From Marchantia polymorpha subsp. ruderalis (Eukaryota > Streptophyta > Marchantiopsida > Marchantiales > Marchantiaceae): a stretch of 64,000 bases of DNA. Numbering within the stretch: position 1 is the first letter of the stretch; every line of letters starts with the position of its first letter. Location: positions 4,568,501 to 4,632,500 of the forward strand of contig AP031352.1 in NCBI GenBank assembly GCA_037833965.1, written 5' to 3'. This document shows positions 5,583 to 58,203 of the stretch, piece after piece. The position numbers and the translations under genes were made by a program. The notes beneath the pieces were generated by a model, which was not told where the DNA came from, did not search any database, and saw only the letters and a list, made by a program, of their open reading frames with translations.

Positions 5583-5603
5583 TCTTCTCAAGCTAAGTAC
5601 GAC

Positions 5604-7810
5604 GTGATGGAGTATGTAGGAAATCAGAAGTCCAATATAACAGTTGGTCAGCTTATTCCCTTGAATCCAGCCATTCGGAAGGAGTTAAGAGGAGGTCTTA
5701 GCTCCACAAGGACCAAGAAGCGGAAATCCAAGGGAAAGGCTCACATGACCAATGTGGGAGTTGGTGTGATGGATGCAGTTGCTTCAGAGGTATGTACACA
5801 TGCTTCAAAGATCAAAGTGAGGATCAATGGACATGATGTATCAGACATGCTGGTTGATGGTGGATCGGCTGTGAATGCCATGTTTGAGAGGTTGATGCAG
5901 AAGTTGGGGATGCAGCCTTCTAGACATTCTTCCATAATTGTTGGTATGGCCAACAAACAGAAGGTAAGACCACTAGGGGTGGTAGACAAAGTTGTGGTTA
6001 GTGTGAGGAGAGTGCAATCTTTGCTTTCCTTCCAAATTCTCAAGGAAGCTAGCTACGACTTGCTGTTGGGACGTCCTTGGTTGAGGGCGGTAAGGTCTAC
6101 GGACCGATGGCACAAGGGTTATTTGAGGATAGGTCCAAAGAACCATCGAGTTAAGGTTCCTTTGACGAGAGGAGGGGAATCCATCACTGACTCAAATAGA
6201 CCAACTGACGAGTATTGGGAATCTAAGAGTGAAGAGAGTGGTAGCTTTTCAGAAGTTGACACAGACATTTCAAATTCCGATCAAGAAACATCCTCGGAGT
6301 ACTCTTTTGATGATAATGTTCAAGTACAAGTCATTGTTGCCATGGAGTTGTTGCCTAAGCCTGGAGTGAAGAAAAATCCTGACAAAGTGGAGATGAGCGA
6401 AGAGGAGGTGTGTCGACGACTGTCCACTCTCAAGTTTGATCCCAAGGTTACCAATGAGGAAAAGGCTAGGTTTTTGGATATATTTCGCAAATATATTCAT
6501 GTTTTTGCCTTTAGTTACAAAGATCTTAATCATGTGACGTTGGAGACTCATCGCATCGAGTTGGAGGAGAAAGCTCGTCCTATTCGGCAAAAGCAACGCT
6601 GAATAAAGCCACCTACAGCTCTTGTGGTGAAGGAGGAGATCGACAAGCTCAAGGAGACTGGCTTCATCTACGAGGTAGAAAATTCTGAATGGGTGTCTCC
6701 AATTGTGATAGTGAAGAAAAAGAATGGTAAGCTACGAGTGTGCGTAGATTACAAAAAGTTGAATGCTGTCACAAAGAAAGACTACTATCCCTTGCCTTTC
6801 ATAGATGAGATTCTAGAAGAGGTTGCTGGCCATGAGTGGTATAGTTTTGGAGATGGTTATAGTGGCTATAACCAAATCCAAACTGCCTTAGAAGACCAAC
6901 TCAAAACAACTTTTACCACTCCATGGGGAACCTTCGCTTTTAGAATGATGCCGTTTGGTCTATGTAATGCTCCTGCCACTTTTCAAAGGTTCATGAATAG
7001 AGTGTTTGAACCTTTCATTGGGAAGTTTGAAAGGGTCTTCATAGATGATTTTTGTGTTTACGGGAGGAAAGCAGATCATTTTGATCATTTGATCAAAATA
7101 CTTCAACGGCTGGAGGAAGCTAAGGCTTCACTCAATCTAGAAAAATGCATTTTTGGATGTGAGAAAGGCCTATTGTTGGAGCATATCATCTCTAAGGATG
7201 GTATAGCAATGGATCCAGAGAAGGTGACGCGGATCATGGAGTTACCTTTTCTTGTGACTTTGACCAAGTTGAGACAATTCCTTGGTATGGGGGGTACTAT
7301 CGACGGTTCATCTTGTCCTTCTCCAACAAAGCTCATGCCTTGATAAATTACATGAAGAAGGGAGTGGAGTACGAACTCATTTTCAAGGATGAAGCTGCAA
7401 AGATGGCGTTCAAAGTTCTCAAGAAAGCGTTGGTGACGGCTCCAATTTTGGCAAAACCGGATTGGAGTAAACCTTTCATTCTTTACACAGATGCATCAAA
7501 TATTGCTGTATGATGCATCTTGAGTCAATTAGATGATGAAAAGCATGATCATCCAATTGCCTATGCTAGTAGATAGATAGTTCAAGCAGAAAAGAACTAC
7601 TCAATGACTGAGAGAGAGGCATTAGCTGTAATCTTCTCACTTAAAAAGTTTCGACATTATTTGTTGGGTGGAAGATTCACTATAGTGACTGATCATAAGG
7701 CTTTGAAATACATTTTCAACAAGCCTAATGCTGAGGGAGTATAGCTAGATGGAAGCTACTATTAGAAGAGTTTGATTATGCCATTGATGATGGACCCGGA
7801 AAGAAGCATG
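5604..7810 (+). pseudogene. pol: pol part 1: protease, reverse transcriptase, RNase H, broken
   Basis: Protease: residues of the 5604 frame include LVDGGSAVNAM, with Asp-Gly-Gly-Ser in place of the classical Asp-Thr/Ser-Gly, as in many plant elements. The same frame continues into reverse transcriptase after one in-frame TGA at 6600-6602. The RT core is clear: KKKNGKLRVCVDYKKLN, FGLCNAPATFQR and the catalytic box VFIDDFCVYG (Asp-Asp kept). A run of six G at about 7289-7294 coincides with a frameshift. RNase H follows (YTDASN at about 7485, TDHKALKYIFN at about 7690), interrupted by TGA at 7511, TAG at about 7573 and more stops after 7735. The breaks mean no functional polyprotein. Confidence 0.85.
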
Positions 7811-7815
7811 CTAAT

Positions 7816-9215
7816 GTGGATTTGATGTCGAGAGCATATGATGATGGAGAAGATCATTCAGTAGATGACACCTTTCCGGATGAGTACTTGTTGGTCATGG
7901 ACACGATGACAACGTTAACGGAGGAGTACAAGAAAATTTGGGATTTCATCTCTAGAGGAGAGTATCCTCAAGGAATTTATCAAAGGGAGAAAAATGCATT
8001 AGTGAAGAGATGTCAACCTTATATGATCATGAAGAAGTTACTTTTTCATCAAGGAGCTGACGGACTTCTATGAAGGGCAGTTGGGAGAGAAGAGGCACAA
8101 CGACTCATGAAAGAGTTTCATGATGGTGCAGTATGTGGAGGACATTTTGCGGGAAAGGTAACTGCCTTCAAAATTCTTGATGCTGGTTATCATTGGAAAG
8201 GTATTTTTAAGGATTGTGAGGAATATTGCAAAAGTTGTGATGTGTGTCAAGCTCTTGCTAAAAAGTCCATGAAAACCCCTCCTATGATTTTTGTACCAGT
8301 GTTAGGTCCTTTTGAAAAGTGGGGGATAGATTTTGTAGGTCCTTTGAATTTTACTCCTCGAGGGAATAAGTTCATTGTGATAGCTACAGATTATCTTACG
8401 AAGTGGGTAGAAGCAAGACCACTTAAATCTACTAATGAGAAGGAGGTTGGTAGATTTCTATATGAGAGCATCATTACTCGATTTGGTTGTCCATCGGATT
8501 TAGTATCAGATAGAGGAGGAGAATTTGTGGGAAGTATAGTTCAAGCCATGTTAGAGCACTTTTCCATCAAGGCTCGAGTGACCACTTCCTACAAACCTAA
8601 TGCTAACGGGTTGGCGGAGCGGATCAACTACACTTTGTGTATGATGTTGGTCAAGGATGCAAACATGGACGGGGAGTAAACACAATTGGGACAAGAGACT
8701 TCATGCTATCTTGTGGGAGTATCACACAACATGAAAGACATCTAACGGACACTCACCTTTTCGGATGGTGTATGAAGTTGAGTCAAAAGTTCTCATATAG
8801 TTTGACTTGACAACATTTACAACGATTCAGCAGAAGATGAAGAAAGCAAATGGAGTGGAAGCTGTCAAGTCTTGCCAGCAACAGCTGATGGAGTTAGAGG
8901 AAGCTCGAGCTTTGGCCATGGTACGAGTGGAGCGTGCTCAATAGTTGCAGAAGAAGTATCACGACAAACGAAGTGGAAATCACAACTTGAAACCGTTCAA
9001 GGAAGGTGATTGGGTGATGCTCTGACGCAATTAGATACAAGAGAGCAAGGAAAAAGTTTCTTCCTAAGTACTTTGGTCCTTTCATAGTTGAGAAGGTGTG
9101 GGTAAATTTCACTTATGACATCAAGGAGCTAGGAGGACGTCACTTCAATCGAGTCAACCACGACAAGTTGAAGTTATTCCATCAAAAATCAGATTCTTTC
9201 ACTTCGAGGGCGTAG
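7816..9215 (+). pseudogene. pol: pol part 2: integrase, partly intact
   Basis: 7816-8073 is a linker frame. 8107-8679 carries the integrase zinc-binding motif (His-His at EFHDGAVCGGHFAGK, Cys-Cys at YCKSCDVCQ) and the catalytic core: first Asp in WGIDFVGP, second Asp in LVSDRGGEF, Glu in GLAERIN. The core is therefore intact in this copy although the 5' neighbour frames are broken: a stop at 8071-8073 separates it from the linker, and TAA at about 8677 ends it. From 8680 to 9215 the carboxy-terminal part is recognisable only by similarity to the relic at 1-690 and is full of stops. Confidence 0.85.
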
Positions 9216-44573: not shown

Positions 44574-46566
44574 TTATTTGGATGAAGCTGGCTCTTTGTA
44601 AAGAACATGAAGCGCTTGAGATATCCCATTCACCCGTGCCACGATACGGTCATGATCAGGACCCTGCAGTTTCGGACCCCACTTTTGGAGGAATTTGTCT
44701 GGAAGAAACAACGTATATGTCAGTAGATTCAGATGATGACATAAAAAAGGTTGCCATTCTCACCGTGTGCAGACGCATTTTCAGTTGAACATTAAAAGTA
44801 TTACAACTACTATAGGGAGAATTAGAAAGTAACAACTAAGAAATTCGTTTGCACGAATTCTGCTCTTGGAGACCAAACAAATACAGAGAAGATAAACACA
44901 GCTACAAACAGATAGCAGGAGAGGATATATTGGGCCCGAATCTGCTACAACTGAAGCTTACTAAAATACGCCCCACAAATATGGATCAGTCTCACTTAAG
45001 GGACCTACTGTTCATACTCTTGTGATGTGATGCAAGTTTGACGCAACTTTGACAAGTAGATAAATCATAGAAGAAATCAAAGGACAGGAATTTTACAAAG
45101 TGGCTCACATCTTCCACCACAAATGTTGAACCAAATATGGTTCAAGTTTGAAAGAAGTGAATGTGGGACATTTACTACAAAATTAAAAACTGTATGACAA
45201 TTAAGATGGCGATTCCGGAACCTACGAAGTCTTGAGTGCTTTCAATGTAACCTACTCCCACAAACATTGAAATGAGCTAGTTGAGATGGCTAAATGATAT
45301 GAAGCACATATATATGTGCTCAGGATAGAGACTTAAAAAGATACCTGGATGCCACTTCAGAATCTCTTTCCTCAGAACGTCCCTGTGCTTGGCTGGATCA
45401 ATACCCTGCAGAAGAACTTGTCCCAATGTTTCTTCCTTTCCCTCAAGAACAGGGAATGGTACATCAGCATATGAGAGACATAAATTGTAAGAATTCGAGA
45501 ACAGCTGCCACCGCTTGTAATAGCTGCGCGCATCTGCAGTGATAACTTCCTTGTGCAACTTCACTTCTTCCGGCAATCTCTGCTGCTCACCCTTGTCTGT
45601 TGCTTTAGCCTTGCCTTTGCTCTTGGGCTTCTTCTCAGGCTTCTCATCATTCCGCACCTTCTCTTGTCGAAGGTAATCTCTGAGACTGAAGAGATCCTCA
45701 TTGTACAAGCCCCTTGCTTGGGAGTTTTCTGCCAACTTTTCCAACAGAATATCCTCCCACTCTTGGGGCTCGGGAGCTTCAGAGAAGTTCTCACCCCACC
45801 ACTCATTGTCGCTAATTTCATCAGCCAGATGATTGAACCAATCCTGCTGCTGTGGAGGTTCAAACGCCTCCTCCTTTGGCTCATTCGTCTTTGAGAGAAT
45901 ATCTGACGGTGTCACACCGTCATCGTTGAAAGCCTCAAGATTTCCACCGGCCCTCAGAAGACGAGATACAAGAGGCAGCAGCCCCAATTTTGCGGCTATG
46001 TGCAAGGGCGTGTTTCCTTTCGAGTCTCGAGCATGCACACTTGCGCCTTTCGATATGAGATACTTCACAGCCCTATCGGACCCGGCATAGCACGCATGAT
46101 GAAGTGGAGATAGCCCGTCGGAATCCCTACCATTGACAATGTCACACAATGTTTCAAAGGGACGGGCCTTTTTACGTGTCTTCTCGTTTGAACCTGAGTC
46201 AGATGAGTCTCTCTCCAACTGTGTTGATTCCGAGGTTTCGGCATCGTTGCCGTCTCCGCAATCGGAATCCGAATTGGATTCTAAATCCAACTCTCTCCGC
46301 TTTCTCTCGTCTCCTCTCCGTCGAGTTTCTCTGCTACTTCGTCTAGTTCGCTTCCTGCTCTTTCCACTGCTGCTCTTATAATCTGAACGTTCGTACTTCT
46401 TCCTCCCACTCGTCTTAGAAGCCCGTCTCTCCAATTTCCTACCGCGCTTAGATATGATATGACTGTGAGAGCCAAGAAGACCCCGTAAGACTTTCACACT
46501 GCCCAATGCAGCTGCTTTCAGGACCCTCTCCTGGACTTTACTGGCTTTGGGTGGGAGAGGGGCCAT
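44574..46566 (-). CDS. NFKBIL1-like ankyrin-repeat protein
   Basis: Two minus-strand exons, 45345-46566 and 44574-44698, join in phase (donor CATCCAG/GTATC, acceptor CTTCCAG/ACAAATT) to give 448 residues. Residues 35-100 are very basic (Arg/Lys/Ser), likely nuclear-targeting, then an acidic Ser/Asp stretch to 125. Two ankyrin repeats follow: DSDGLSPLHHACYAGSDRAV (149-168 onward) and DSKGNTPLHIAAKLGLLPLV (181-200 onward), with a partial third at DDGVTPSDIL. Then WWGENF, an acidic/helical linker, and YYKRWQLF (349-356). The end EILKWHPDKF...ISQAL is the hallmark carboxy terminus of the NFKBIL1 (IkBL) family and depends on the splice. Animal members are nuclear and have been linked to splicing control; the plant role is unknown. 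A read-through of the intron would give a shorter 429-residue form. Confidence 0.9.
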
Positions 46567-47503
46567 GGCTCAACAGATTCCTTTCGCTCATCAGAGTCTT
46601 TGAAACCTCGCTGCTGATTTTCCAGCTCAGACTTGAAATAACACAGCATCGCACACTATTAATGAATCGGCTGTTCTACGTCATAATTCCGCACCAACTT
46701 TTCAGCTTCTAACTTGATGCTGCATTTCAGGAGTATCAAACTTGCGTCAGGACAAAGTTTGGTATGCCTCTGTATCGAAAGCTGATCAACATTTCCTGGA
46801 TAGTTACAGAGCGCAGTATTAGGACTCCTCATAATCTTCCCAGAAATTTGAACAAAGGACATGTATCATAGATTCTCTAGCGATTATTGTCTCAAACTAT
46901 TTGAAGAGAGTACACTGTCGAGCAAAATTGAGAACAAAGGAAGCGCAAATATTTGTACAAATTACAGTTCAATAGCTGGTCCAGTAAAGCGTCGCGCACG
47001 TCACAAGAATACGTAATCAACTGTTACATGGGTTCTCAATTTCATAAGCGTATGTTGTCTGGATAGTGGAAAATGAAGAATTTAGGTCAACTTTTGCAAC
47101 AAACATATGTGTTCTCACGGCCTACGTGTCTCCTCGGCGATCACCAATTCCGCCAACAAATGTTCCCAAATCCTTAGAATGATCGAAACTTGTACAGGTC
47201 AAAAATTGCTCAAACTTCCCGAGATTTCAAACGCGGAAGAAAGAGAGAAAAAAGCCTTGGCGCTAGGAATCTCAAAGGCTCTCGACCAAATCGACGGAGC
47301 TCTAAACAAAAATTCGTTCCCGTGGAGCAGTTCAGCTGTACGAAACACATTATCGTGCTAGGGTTTACCACGCAAACCACAAAAATTCAACGGTAGAATC
47401 CAATGCCATTCATGATACTGTTGAGGTACAGTAGAGAACTCACCATTGAACAAATTACTGCTCCAGACTGGTAGTTCAGAGGCGGAATGAAAAATGTTAC
47501 AGG
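46567..47503. other. Upstream flank of the NFKBIL1-like gene
   Basis: No gene recognised. The promoter of the minus-strand gene must lie here, but no clear TATA box is visible. Confidence 0.45.
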
Positions 47504-50438: not shown

Positions 50439-50561
50439 GAAGGCGTCGTGTGATGTTCCACCCTCTCTCGAGTTCATTCCACGACAAAGTCGAGTCACAG
50501 ACGCACATCGGGATACACCGAGGAACTCGAATCTTCGCTGTCCAGCCGGGGAGGGGGTACA

Positions 50562-52565
50562 ATGACAGCTTCGTACGTAATTCGAAGAATATCACTGATT
50601 GCTGCAGGGATAGCGTCAGCGATCATGTTGCTGGGGACGAGTGGAATGGGGCATCGCGAGTCCAGCCCACGACGGCGTCTGGCAACTGCTGCTCGAGGAG
50701 GAGTGCCTGCGTTGTTTATCATGGGAGATTCCACCGTGGACGTGGGCAACAACAACAATCTGATAACTCTGGCGCAGGCGACCTTTCCTCCATACGGTCA
50801 GGACTTCGATACCCATGAGCCGACGGGACGCTTCAGCAACGGCCGTCTGGCTGTTGACTATCTGGGTACGTGTGATCCAAGTCCATTCTCAGAGTCGGCT
50901 AGGTCCGCCGTCGCCCTGTATCAACTCTTGACTCACGGATGATACTTTCCTCCGTTAACCTCATAGATTGCTACCTACTTGTTTCGATTTACGAGACGTA
51001 ATCTATCCAGTGGGTCCATCTTTTGATGTGAATCACTTGAATATTGACTAAACATTCATGATCTCTTGCTAGTGACTGACACCGATCCTGATCATCCGCG
51101 TGATGCAGCATCATATCTGGATATGCCCTTGATTCCGGCTTACCTCTTGATGAACTCAACGTCGGATATTTCCAAGGGTGTCAACTTTGCCTCGGCTGGA
51201 TCTGGCATTCTCAATGATACTGGGACCATCTTTGTAAGATTTTGAAGCTTATATTCTACGTCTTAGAACGGACGTGCACGTCAAATATTCAGATATTAAT
51301 AATATTGCTCAGATGCAGATGCAAGACTTTGTCACAGACTTGTCAACGAACGGTGATTTATTAATATAGGAGCTCGAGAGTGGTTTGTACGTTTGGATCT
51401 TACTTGCATACTGGCGATAATTATTGGTGCACATTTTTTGAAGCACAGGGAGAGTATGTGTCCCTTTCGCAGCAGCTGGAGCAGTTTTCGATTGTGAAGC
51501 AACGCTTGAATGAGGAATTGGGGGCCACAGCTGCCTCGAGGCTGGTCGCGGGTTCTATATACTACATTTCAACAGGAAGCAACGACTTTATAAATAATTA
51601 CCTCTTGCCTGGAAATCCTCACTTGGATATTTTCCCCGATGGATATGAAAGACTGCTCGTTTCATCTTTCAGCGACCTCATCAAGGTGAGAGAGAGAAGA
51701 CGAAGTCAATGCCTCTTTTGTTTTCCTCGAGCCTGGATTTCACTGGTCCACGTGAGGAGGTATCTTAAAGAAGGATCTTCAACATCCTGAAAATAGTTGT
51801 CTACTAATTGATTGATATCAACCCTGTGTTTTTCCACAGCAAGCTAGCTTGCTGTGGAATAGAACATGATGTGCTTATCTCAGATAGAAAATGGGCTTTT
51901 ACTTGCAGAAACTGTACAGAGTGGGAGCGAGGAAGATTGTGATAACTTCCCTGTCACCTTTGGGCTGCATACCTTCAATCCTGTTCAAGATGGGTAGCAG
52001 GCAGGGGGAATGTATAGGGCAAGTCAACCAGCTGGTGGTGCAATATAATATTTTACTCCAGAAAGAACTTCGCTCGCTGCGAAAACATTTGCACGGAGTC
52101 AAGCTGGTCTACAATGACGCCTATCATGTCTTCCTCGACATAGCCTCTAACGCTACTTCCTATGGTAATTCTGATCGAATGTGGTTTCAGTTAAGAAAAT
52201 TTAAAGCTTCAAACGACTCGGTTTCAGGTTCTCTTGTGTTAGCTCGGATTGGATTCTTATCTTGAGTATTTCTCAGACAAACTGGGTAACTGTAGCGCGC
52301 GATCTTCGCTCAACTATTCGTTTGCCCCTTGTTCTGTGGGCCAGGATTGGGTTCCATCGACCAGTCTTGCTGTGGAGCGGGTCCTTATGGAGGCCTGAAG
52401 ACGTGTTCCCGAGGTTTTAAACCCTGCGAGAGCCCCAAGGCTTATTTCTTTTGGGATGAGTATCATCCAACGTCCGCTGTGTATGAATTGATGGCGCAGA
52501 GATTCTGGTCTGGCTCGGTCAAGGCAAGTTCTCCCTGGAATATCCGGACTTTGGCTCAAATGTAG
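50562..52565 (+). CDS. GDSL-type esterase/lipase, secreted
   Basis: Serine esterases of this family hydrolyse lipid, cutin-like or small ester substrates outside the cell. Five exons fit in phase: 50562-50865, 51073-51233, 51449-51685, 51909-52164, 52345-52565, for 392 residues (the family is usually 350-400). Residues 1-25 form a signal peptide (IRRISLIAAGIASAIMLLG). Block I is FIMGDSTVDVGNNN with nucleophile Ser57. The block II region is VNFASAGSGIL. Block III is STGSNDF (Gly198, Asn200). Block V is WDEYHPT with Asp357 and His360. The four catalytic blocks are thus complete. PLGCIPS and SIDQSCCGAG are also typical. The start is the first ATG after the TATA box. A different long frame over exon 1 (50228-50818) is a shadow. 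The gene is tail-to-tail with the alpha-dioxygenase. Confidence 0.93.
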
Positions 52566-53570: not shown

Positions 53571-56500
53571 TCAAGGTAGACGAAGGTAGAGAGGTACGGG
53601 GTTCCATTTGTCGGCGGGAGCGCTCCAAATCGAGAATGCAGAACTAGCAGTCATCCAGTTTGTGACAATGTCGGGATAATGGCGTTGAACCACATCTTTC
53701 AAGCCTTCTGTTTTGTTGACCCACTGCAGTCCTATCTTCGTGTAATTTTCCTCGTTGAATCTAGAGGTAAACCGCGCATCCGATTCCAGTCTCCTGCTCA
53801 GAGCAATTCGACATCATCAGTAACTTTTCTGATGCAAGGATATGTTTTTACATCAGAGTAATTTCATATATGCAAAGAATATCCAGGTAGATAAGTCAGC
53901 TTGCACGGTACCGCTACTTCTACCAGCTCTTGAGATATTTAATCAGAGGAACGTGTCTGACACTGGCCCGGAGGACTCAATGCCAACATAATGCTCCGAG
54001 TCGTAGAAGTGGAGTTCGATTAAGGAAGAGTATTCTTCTCTCTGATCCGATCCATCTTCATATAAATCTACCATGTTGCGTAAAAAATGAAAATGGGGCG
54101 AGGGAATAATTTAGAAAGGTAGTCTAAGTAATCTCTACAGACATTTGGTAACTTATATTGTATCATATCAAGATTCTACTACTTTATCCCTCTCTTTATA
54201 TTTTACAACATAATCAGCTTGTGCAAGAATATATACATGGTCGTGCTTGGCAAGAGCTGGTGGGTGAGGTTGTACCTCGTGGCCATGAGTACGAAGATGA
54301 AGAACGCTGTCTCACTGATTGCGAAGCCAGGAATCTTCTTCTCTCCTAGAAGCCCCACCAAGAGATCCAGCTTTTCCACGTCATCACCGTAAACCTCCTT
54401 GATGACTTCGATGGTGGCAGCTTCGTCAGTCAAATCCTCCCATTTCTTGATGGCAGGCATTAACATACTTCTCCGGAATTGGTTATAACGAGCCACTCGC
54501 CGAGAGCGATCTCTGAATGCTGCACGAGAAATTAAGATTAGTAAATAACAACAACCAAAATCAAAGTTGAATGTCGAGATCTGTTGAATGTCCGTTCCGA
54601 TCTGTTTTTTTGGAACTCAATAGATCTTACAGCTGCACATGTTCAGTATAGTCAGCTTTTGGAGCATTTGTCAATGTTGTAGGATGTGAAATAAGTGAAA
54701 GAAACGTTCACTGCGTGAATTGGATAAAATTGCAAAATGTCATTAAGGTCTCAAATAATGTTAACATCTGCAGCTATGAACTGGAACCGTGATGTTTACT
54801 TTCAATTGCCGGTAAGTCCACGTGCTCTTTACGGTAAGTGCCGTCATCGTTGGTGACAGGAAGATTTCGCATCCATGTGGGATAGTTGAACAGATTCAGT
54901 GCTCCGGATGGTTGGAGGCCCAAGGATGTCAGTGCGGTCTTCATTCCCAACAACTTGGCCTTCTGAAGCCCTGGTGCACCGATCAGCTCTAACATTGGAA
55001 CTCTGCAAACGAGGGAGATTCCTGATGATGATCGATGGAATCACATCACACACTGAGCAACATAAATTCAATCATAGTTTCACCCAGGAAATCTCGAACT
55101 CCAGACGTGCAACAGTCGGTTGTGGGAGTTTGGTAGCTTACTTACTCTTCCAGTATGGAGGGTTCGCTATCCTTAGGCAAACATTTCTGAATGTCCCTGA
55201 ACTCGATCTTCTCCGGCAAAAGAGGATGCATCCGGTAGACCGATGTGAATTCCTCCGTCAACGAGTATGGGACGCCATGGTCTATGGGTTTTGGGGCTCC
55301 AGCTATTCCACTCAAAAGAGCAATGCTTGTCTTCCCTATATGGTCCTTGATCCACTTCCCCAGCAGCCCATACCTGAAACACTTTCGTAAGGTGCATCAG
55401 CACAATTAAGTCACTGTGATATCAGCAGTGCTCACAACGCACCTTTCAAGCTCCAGGCCCCTTTGTGATGAATCTGCAAACACGAAGTACAACCGGAACT
55501 GACGAGATAGATAGACGTGGTTGACACATGGAATGCATTCAGCTTTACCTCGTTGTGGATCACAGAGGGTTAATGCATTTGTTTAACGACATTAACTCTT
55601 TCAGGTCGAGTGCACTTGACATGAATTCAGACTGACTTACCATTTGACCATCCATTAGTGACGACTACGAAGTTGAGGAATGAATTGAAACCGGCATCTT
55701 GGCTGTTGATTAGTCCTAGAAACCTTGTAAGGGATGGCTATGAGGGATCCGGACCTTACCAATTAGCTCTCATGGCTGCAAGTAAAGTGTTCGTTTTTAG
55801 CAGCTGGGTGGTCCAGTCGATGGTATGGATCTTTGCAGCTTCAGCCATAACCACAAGCCTCCCATGTTGGAAAAGAGATTCATCGTCGAGATTCGGATAA
55901 GCATTCTGCATTCTCGTCAAGTAATGGTATCAAAATTTATATCCGAGGACTCACAAGACTCTTTCTCCGATTGCCAAAATGATTCGTACATCGATGAGCA
56001 AGTCTCGGGCGAGACACAAGCACAATTATCTGAGCATCTGTCGTGCCTCGAGATTTCTTCTCTCGATTGCCGGAAATATTTATCAGGCTGCTGACGATAT
56101 CGAGAAAGGATGTAATGCTGAATACCCCTCACCTCCAAAATTCGTCTTACCAACGAGGCAGTAATCTTGAGGACTTTTTCAGTCCATGATTTGAGATAGT
56201 TACGAGTCCAGAGAAATATTTCTCAGACTTAAAAATCTCTCAAATTCGCTCGGTTAGAAGAAAATTCAGAATTGAATTTTCGACGCAACTTCTAGCTCTG
56301 GTTCCATGCACAAATGCTCGAAAGTAATCACCTTGAGGGTATCGCAGACGAGGTTGTGTTCGGAGACAAAGAGGGACTGTAAGACAGAGACTCCCATCCA
56401 CGGATTTCTCGCATCGCCAGTGATGGGAATATTGCGGCTATCGACTTCAAGAAGTCCTCCGTCTCCAAGCTTCAGCTTCCCATCGTTGAATGTCCTTACC

Positions 56501-58203
56501 GATCTTTGGGATTCAGTGTTCTGCCCGTAAATAGCACTCGCATCCCTGTCCATAATCGCTGTCACCCGTCACGATTACGTTGTAGAAGTGGATCTCGGGA
56601 AACGAGGAAGAAATGACGAAAGACTCAATCTAACAGATGCTGACGAAATCGCATTTCATCTCTTCGTCGAAATTCTTACCACCAAGCGGTTCGTGTGTTT
56701 TTGAAACCAACTCGCCCTTCTCCAATGGGAAACTCCCTTGTGGGATAGAACTTGAAAGTCTTCAAGGGGCATTCCGCCGCCACAGAGTCAGGAGCGGTGA
56801 TGCCAAGCAGCTGCAGCGCAGTACCCTCGATCAGTTTTCAATTTAGCACAAAAATCGACACGTCGACCATTTCTCCATTCTGCTCGCTGAGGCAGAGCTT
56901 CAACCATAAAGAGAAGTGAAAATAGGATGAATTGGATGAGCACCATATTGCAAGAAAATGTGGTGAGACAACAGATTGGATCTCCGTGGAAGCCATGTCT
57001 CTCACGTTCAGAGAAACGAAGAGGACTGTGATGATTGGCAGCTCGTTCTGTACGTTGATTGCTGTACCTGATGGGAGTCGTCTTCCATGTGATCGAGCCA
57101 GTCTTTGATCATGTAGTTTATCCACGATGTCGCTAGCATGTTGAATTGTTTACCCGTGCCGACGAATGTGGTTCGGTTCAGAAGCTTTGTGGCAATCACA
57201 GAAGGATGAGGAAGGAGTAGCTGCACATGGGTGGATTTCACCAAATTACATGTGGACTATTGGCACGTTCCCTCTCACATCTCTTGTAAATCATTACGGG
57301 CCCTAAAGTCGAAGACTCTGAGATTTCATACTGAAGAGAAGAATTGCAATCTGCAGTAAATGATATCACAAATTTCATTGATCACATTCCGGGACTACGT
57401 ATGTACAGTCAAAGTGATAAGGGCAAATTTTGCTCATTTCTCGGGGACTTGAGGCTTGATGCTTGATGCTTGAAACTGCAAAGAATTCCTGAAATTTCCT
57501 GGATGAAAAGCACGTGAAGAGAAGGGGTTTAACACATGGAGTGCACTGTGATATGTGCGTAGAATGTTCTTCTGTCTTACTTCATCTTGTTGAGATTGTT
57601 GGTCCATATTTCGGCCGAAGAAGGAGTACTGGTCTCCACTGTCTTCATCAGGAGGACCTACGGCGATAAGGTTATACTTTTGATGTAGCAGCCTTCGCAA
57701 TTCGAGGTACACGAGGCCCAGGAACACGGGTACTTTGTACCATTTCAGGTGCCTATCGGAAAGGTTCACATACTATACACATCGTTCCACACATGATACA
57801 TAAAACAGGGCCGCTTGTCAATTTCATCAACGAAAATTTTATAATACAATTGAGGTTCGTTCATCTTGAGAGTAAAGATGATGAAAGCAGGACATGAACC
57901 TCTCTGTTAATTAGAAGGTTCATTGCAGTTACCGTTGTGTCTCAGTTCTTGATAGAAGTCATAATCTCACTGTCTGAAAGCCAAGTAGCTACGCTAGTTT
58001 CGGGAGCAAATTACATCAATCTCAAAAAAGCTTCTCGAATGTGAAAGTGTCCAACAGCCCATGAACTGTTAGCGTGAGACTGAAATATTAGCAACATTAC
58101 AAAAACGTGTCAAACATACCAGCAAGCAGAGCTTGTACCCAAATGGCATCTTCTCGTAAGCAGGCCTTAGTTCTTCGCTGATCCAAGACGATAGGAACCC
58201 CAT
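53571..58203 (-). CDS. Fatty-acid alpha-dioxygenase, divergent
   Basis: Alpha-dioxygenases are haem peroxidase-fold enzymes that add O2 to the alpha carbon of fatty acids to make 2-hydroperoxides. Eleven minus-strand exons fit GT-AG rules and phase: 58120-58203, 58015-58079, 57581-57752, 57068-57220, 56680-56810, 56332-56545, 55760-55905, 55146-55373, 54800-55002, 54276-54519, 53571-53793. They give 620 residues (Arabidopsis DOX1: 639). Seen: PVFLGLVYLE, YSFFGRN, GKQFNMLATSWINYM, IYGQN, LFVSEHNLVCDTLK, AAKIHTIDWTTQLLKT, VPYSLTEEFTSVYRMHPLLP (catalytic Tyr368, proximal His371), QPSGALNLFNYP, RYNQFRRSMLM, GFAISETAF, and a family-type tail (WVNKTEGLKDVVQRHYPDI). Oddities: MIKDW has Lys146 where the family has its distal haem His, and about 20 residues are missing between NLIAVG and YSFFGRN. 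Exon 2 is the weakest part: its other frame reads LTLTVHGLLD, closer to the family. Confidence 0.9.

Follow-up and report, generated by a model that had tools for sequence, protein, structure and literature searches.

A conserved Marchantia alpha-dioxygenase variant with lysine in the place of the distal haem histidine

In a 64,000-nucleotide stretch of the Marchantia polymorpha subsp. ruderalis genome (assembly GCA_037833965.1, contig AP031352.1, positions 4,568,501 to 4,632,500; hereafter the window) we found an alpha-dioxygenase (alpha-DOX) gene whose product has a lysine, Lys131, where the distal haem histidine is expected. In the cyclooxygenase-peroxidase superfamily this histidine is regarded as an acid-base helper of peroxide activation: peroxide oxidises the haem to Compound I, Compound I takes an electron from a tyrosine, and the tyrosyl radical begins oxygenation. 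Sequence comparisons give good support to a conserved, lineage-specific alpha-dioxygenase variant. Our preferred interpretation, to which we assign a probability of roughly 0.45, is that the gene encodes a maintained Marchantia paralogue whose distal, peroxide-side pocket has been remodelled by two replacements, His131 to Lys and Phe128 to Tyr, with altered peroxide activation as the predicted outcome.

The gene occupies positions 58203-53571 of the window on the minus strand and comprises ten exons that form a single open frame of 605 amino acids, separated by nine introns that are all GT-AG. We built the splice model by eye from the reading frames and from matches to solved alpha-dioxygenases; the resulting 605-residue protein is the same (100% identity, 100% coverage) as a public protein of M. 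polymorpha subsp. ruderalis (P0001) that its source names fatty acid alpha-dioxygenase. In the splice model the distal haem segment, Asn127-Tyr128-Met-Ile-Lys131-Asp-Trp, falls in exon 3 (57068..57220, minus strand), which has AG in front and GTACAG behind and translates as SWINYMIKDWLDHMEDDSHQ. The Lys131 codon, AAA, lies at 57104..57106 and the Tyr128 codon, counted from Lys131 within the exon, at 57113..57115, both on the minus strand. A previous sequence-only reading of this DNA had given the same exon boundaries, with the strand unstated, and the same AAA codon. It had also described an open frame of eleven exons and 620 residues; the frame is open, but the numbers of exons and residues are ten and 605. 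Its residue numbers (Lys146, Tyr368 and His371) exceed those used here (131, 353 and 356) by a constant 15, probably because it placed the translation start further upstream.

The assignment of this lysine to the distal haem position, also made in the sequence-only reading, agrees with our alignments. Lys131 pairs with position 160 of the 4kvj chain, which is rice His157 if the chain numbering is shifted by 3, and the same offset sets rice His311, Tyr379, His382 and Arg559 on His285, Tyr353, His356 and Arg533. In the alignment to the Y379F mutant structure 4kvl, Phe stands opposite Tyr353. The sequence-only reading gave the corresponding Arabidopsis residue as His163 and an excerpt of PMC4334559 prints His-165; we rely on the rice numbering, in which His157 is the distal histidine and His382 the proximal ligand according to the passages available from Kim et al. 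(PMC8720084). In the plant alignment, which consists of the 120 best of 1898 homologues, position 131 is His in 118 proteins and Lys in two, P0001 and its orthologue from Marchantia paleacea (P0002); these two are called the Lys pair below, and the remainder the other 118. The sequence-only reading had allowed that the functional histidine might instead be the later one, in an LDH motif. This is ruled out, since that residue, His136, is separate and present in 118 of the other 118.

The remainder of the catalytic apparatus is unchanged. The catalytic Tyr353 and the proximal haem ligand His356 (exon 7, 55146..55373, minus strand), together with the substrate-carboxylate anchors His285, Thr290 and Arg533, are identical in all 120 proteins. 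His285 and Thr290 (rice His311 and Thr316) are encoded by exon 6 (55760..55905, minus strand). Exon 9 (54276..54519, minus strand) ends within the Arg532 codon, and exon 10 (53571..53793, minus strand) supplies the rest of Arg532, Arg533 (rice Arg559), the C-terminus and the stop codon. Rice His311 and Arg559 are reportedly important, as the title of a cited paper indicates, and Thr316 we take to be a carboxylate anchor in the rice enzyme.

Among the 101 columns that are invariant in the other 118, the Lys pair differs at two, positions 128 and 131. Both departures are common to the two species and lie three residues apart in the distal haem segment. The statement in the sequence-only reading that the rest of the core is kept thus stands for Tyr353 and His356, but it missed Tyr128, in a column that has Phe in every one of the other 118. 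Pairs of invariant columns within 3 residues of each other number 79 of 5050, a share (1.6%) that is descriptive, the closeness of 128 and 131 having been noticed post hoc. For segment 115-137 this closeness analysis used a poor structure model; the good model gives a helix at 120-129. The neighbouring Asn127 (Gln in seed plants) is, on the alignment, no part of the oddity, because 13 of the other 118 also have Asn there, including named Riccia, Marchantia, Ceratodon, Physcomitrium and Sphagnum proteins.

The replacement of Phe128 by Tyr in the same segment as Lys131 suggests a rebuilt pocket and not a single loss. It would also suit a protein in which Tyr128 and Lys131 form a new distal pocket and Lys131 ligates or gates the haem. 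As sixth ligand of the haem iron (His356/Lys131), the lysine would keep the haem closed and low-spin until opened by pH, redox or a ligand, and the protein, kept beside the normal enzyme, would either be a fatty acid dioxygenase gated by peroxide or redox state or serve to sense peroxide, fatty acid or lipid. A distal Lys ligand that diatomic ligands displace is known from the Chlamydomonas truncated haemoglobin THB1, as described in excerpts of PMC4304232; we did not draw on a myoglobin study, which concerns a proximal Lys. THB1 is, however, a globin of unrelated fold, so that the parallel is one of chemical analogy, and our predicted structure is haem-free; we consider Lys131 ligation unlikely.

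In all, 25 states, those at 128 and 131 included, are peculiar to the Lys pair when set against the other 118. V277 (Thr in 114 of the others, Asn in 4), M278 and A281 (Ile in 106, Leu in 11, Val in 1) come shortly before His285, and L412 replaces a residue that is His in 114, Asn in 2 and Tyr in 2. These states might mean that the radical chemistry is kept with a different substrate or product and that the altered pocket belongs to a new specificity. Of the 120 relatives listed for an actinobacterial protein, however, 113 likewise have Val at 277, which is thus not peculiar; we regard a new specificity as very improbable.

Both Lys species also carry His-bearing paralogues (P0005 in M. polymorpha, P0004 in M. 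paleacea), the kind of gene that the sequence-only reading had proposed to look for. P0005 is 64-65% identical to the Lys protein, and its gene probably sits on another chromosome. Of the 120 listed proteins, 26 were placed in a tree, in which the Lys pair was sister to a clade (100/99 support) made up of the Marchantia His pair and three Riccia proteins. Approximately unbiased (AU) tests, for clades picked after inspection of the tree, rejected a topology uniting all four Marchantia proteins (p 0.0076) and one joining the Lys pair with the single Riccia fluitans protein (p 0.00017). Because the Lys lineage falls outside the clade of Marchantia His proteins and Riccia proteins it looks old, and the duplication appears to be older than the Marchantia-Riccia split. 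Among the 120 listed of 1898, the Lys protein had no Riccia orthologue, which implies loss or absence from the database. A region search for further Lys-bearing relatives, by a method that requires shared exact words, gave two candidates, P0001 and P0002. Riccia sorocarpa has two listed His-bearing copies (P0006 and P0007; 83.8% identical) that are sisters in the tree and apparently represent a separate duplication.

The Lys proteins of the two Marchantia species are 91.6% identical, and the His proteins 87.8%. The most conserved columns of the alignment, at a threshold of 95%, number 196; of the 51 substitutions within the Lys pair, 1 falls there, against an expectation of 16.5 (p 2e-8). When both Marchantia pairs were left out of the definition of these columns (203 columns), the counts were 2 of 51 for the Lys pair (17.1 expected) and 5 of 74 for the His pair (24.7 expected); the two pairs are under like constraint. 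Of the 196 conserved columns, one Lys protein departs from the consensus at 8 and the other at 9, which is at the upper end of the range of the set (up to 9) and within it. Relative-rate tests of the Lys proteins versus five His proteins with four outgroups revealed no acceleration (40 non-independent comparisons, lowest p 0.10). As far as the protein sequence goes, a recent or drifting pseudogene is strongly disfavoured.

The loss of a key residue could in principle reflect a pseudogene, a recent inactivation, or a sequencing or assembly error. Apart from this constraint, the open ten-exon frame, the intact borders of all nine introns and the occurrence of Lys in two species argue against these explanations. 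A simple reading error is unlikely because two bases must change to turn His (CAT/CAC) into Lys (AAA/AAG) and because Lys also occurs in the orthologue from M. paleacea, and we judge this group of explanations extremely improbable. The sequence-only reading had denied that the gene was an ordinary decayed pseudogene, in agreement with the open frame, the two species and the protein-level constraint, and had offered either a paralogue with changed chemistry or a recently inactivated enzyme. The paralogue finds backing in P0005, the old lineage and the strong constraint; recent inactivation is contradicted by the presence of Lys in two species, by 51 differences that lie nearly all off conserved columns, and by the rate tests, which detected no rise.

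A maintained but catalytically dead pseudoenzyme is a further alternative. Such a protein might bind haem or fatty acid, or pair with the active paralogue, in a regulatory role, and the loss of a near-fixed residue while the rest is strongly constrained is what it would produce. Some loss among the radical tyrosine and the substrate anchors would then be expected, however, and Tyr353 and the anchor residues are kept; we consider a pseudoenzyme possible but not probable.

By descent the Lys protein is a member of the alpha-dioxygenase family, as judged from its place in the tree. It matches rice alpha-DOX and Arabidopsis alpha-DOX in phmmer with expectation (E) values of 1.4e-212 and 1.3e-209, respectively, and scores 270.6 bits against PF03098 (cut-off 25); in NCBIfam there was no matching family for P0001 or P0005. 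Structure prediction with 75 sequences gave the alpha-DOX fold, in a model without haem. A first prediction from 22 sequences was dropped for its predicted local distance difference test (pLDDT) score of 56.8. Of the residues by which an alpha-dioxygenase is recognised, the protein has the tyrosine, the proximal histidine and the anchors, and has Lys131 for the distal histidine. Because the available passages of Kim et al. (PMC8720084) describe the distal histidine as only 'partially conserved' in the family, we did not treat it as strictly defining.

Under our preferred interpretation of a remodelled distal pocket, haem would be bound through His356, the fatty acid carboxylate would be held by His285, Thr290 and Arg533, and the Tyr353 radical would still be formed and remove the alpha hydrogen. 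Lacking the acid-base catalyst His, the protein would have its haem oxidised slowly by peroxide. Since the protein keeps the parts for the radical and the substrate and differs in the one for peroxide activation, we infer a slower or differently controlled activation. The reaction would start slowly and need higher peroxide, or hydroperoxide from the His-bearing paralogue or from lipoxygenases. The enzyme would also reduce its own 2-hydroperoxide poorly, which would shift the products towards the shortened aldehyde and away from the 2-hydroxy acid. Excerpts of PMC7494923 describe the same radical scheme for cyclooxygenase (COX), with the distal His possibly aiding hydroperoxide ionisation, and in the superfamily there are precedents for altering the distal His position without total loss of activity, according to the portion of PMC13049297 available.

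Several observations weigh against a remodelled, working enzyme. The distal histidine is near-fixed: it is present in 118 of 118 other plant proteins, in 119 of 120 relatives of an alpha-DOX-like protein from Nonomuraea (those listed out of 7733; the named ones are actinobacterial, and the one without His has Arg), and in 8 of 8 plasmid-borne relatives fetched (a tblastn search of plasmids matched 30 records, 19 of them with a query coverage of 80% or more, and the 8 are the distinct ones fetched of those 19). Near-fixation suggests that loss of the residue is costly. These high counts contrast with the partial conservation reported in the passages from Kim et al. (PMC8720084), and the branches that those authors mean may be absent from our samples. 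The two departures at invariant columns, moreover, fall within the range of 0 to 3 shown by five control pairs. Protein-level constraint indicates that a protein is kept and is no proof of fatty acid oxygenation. Finally, the interpretation draws on sequence and a predicted fold, from which haem binding and activity are predicted.

A further set of bacterial loci, with His in 80 of 80 (80 kept of 150 with a relative), was left unused; the search pattern WI[NQ]FM[IV]H itself demands His, which makes the count circular. Of the 120 relatives listed for the Nonomuraea protein, 93 are annotated as having PF00199, a catalase domain, as well as PF03098. The distal motif of one of them, the 972-residue protein P0121, is situated around residue 500, and the catalase part should precede it, so that one chain would hold a domain that removes peroxide and another that peroxide activates.

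The other exons of the alpha-DOX gene, all on the minus strand and placed by the splice model and tblastn, are exon 1 (58120..58203, with the start codon at 58203 and a 100% tblastn match to P0001 residues 1-28), exon 2 (57581..57772), exon 4 (56680..56810), exon 5 (56332..56545) and exon 8 (54800..55002). No second, tandem alpha-DOX copy was seen in the window, where all tblastn matches outside the gene had E values of at least 3.6. The 3' end of the gene is adjoined by a frame that matches GDSL lipase weakly (50454-50939, plus strand; PF00657, E 0.0039, under the cut-off), of which the frame at 51365-51787, with no Pfam match, appears by eye to be a continuation. Elsewhere the window contains a 430-residue open frame with ankyrin repeats (45280-46569, minus strand; PF00023, E 4.2e-15) and retrotransposon pieces with aspartyl protease, reverse transcriptase and integrase domains (5583-8676, plus strand).

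That a genetically tractable plant has naturally kept a Lys variant alongside a paralogue with His lets the purpose of the distal residue be asked, and it gives bryophyte oxylipin biology a second, unusual alpha-DOX. An excerpt of PMC4490225 reports that Marchantia makes no jasmonate. Our search of the open-licence alpha-dioxygenase and oxylipin literature on Marchantia or liverworts, through titles and abstract openings, showed no publication on this gene among the entries listed.

Among the closest known systems is P0005, which shares family, species, catalytic Tyr, proximal His and anchors with the Lys protein but has Phe128 and His131 and groups with Riccia. Rice alpha-DOX (4kvj/4kvl) and Arabidopsis DOX1 (4hhr/4hhs) have full-length similarity and the predicted fold in common with it, whereas both have the distal His, and rice has about 24 extra residues just after residue 67 of the Lys protein. 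The alpha-DOX of the bryophyte Physcomitrium patens (P0012) is 59.1% identical and likewise has Asn at 127; unlike the Lys protein it keeps both haem histidines, and its activity has been demonstrated, as stated in an excerpt of PMC4334559. Cyanobacterial 10S-dioxygenase (10S-DOX) and the H203Q mutant of fungal 8R-DOX belong to the same superfamily and have the distal His position altered, naturally or by mutation, but they represent another branch, the residue is not Lys, and oxygenation takes place at another position (PMC13049297, in the portion available). THB1 resembles the Lys protein in its distal Lys, there a haem ligand, and, its fold being unrelated, is relevant only to the possibility that Lys131 ligates the haem (PMC4304232, in excerpt).
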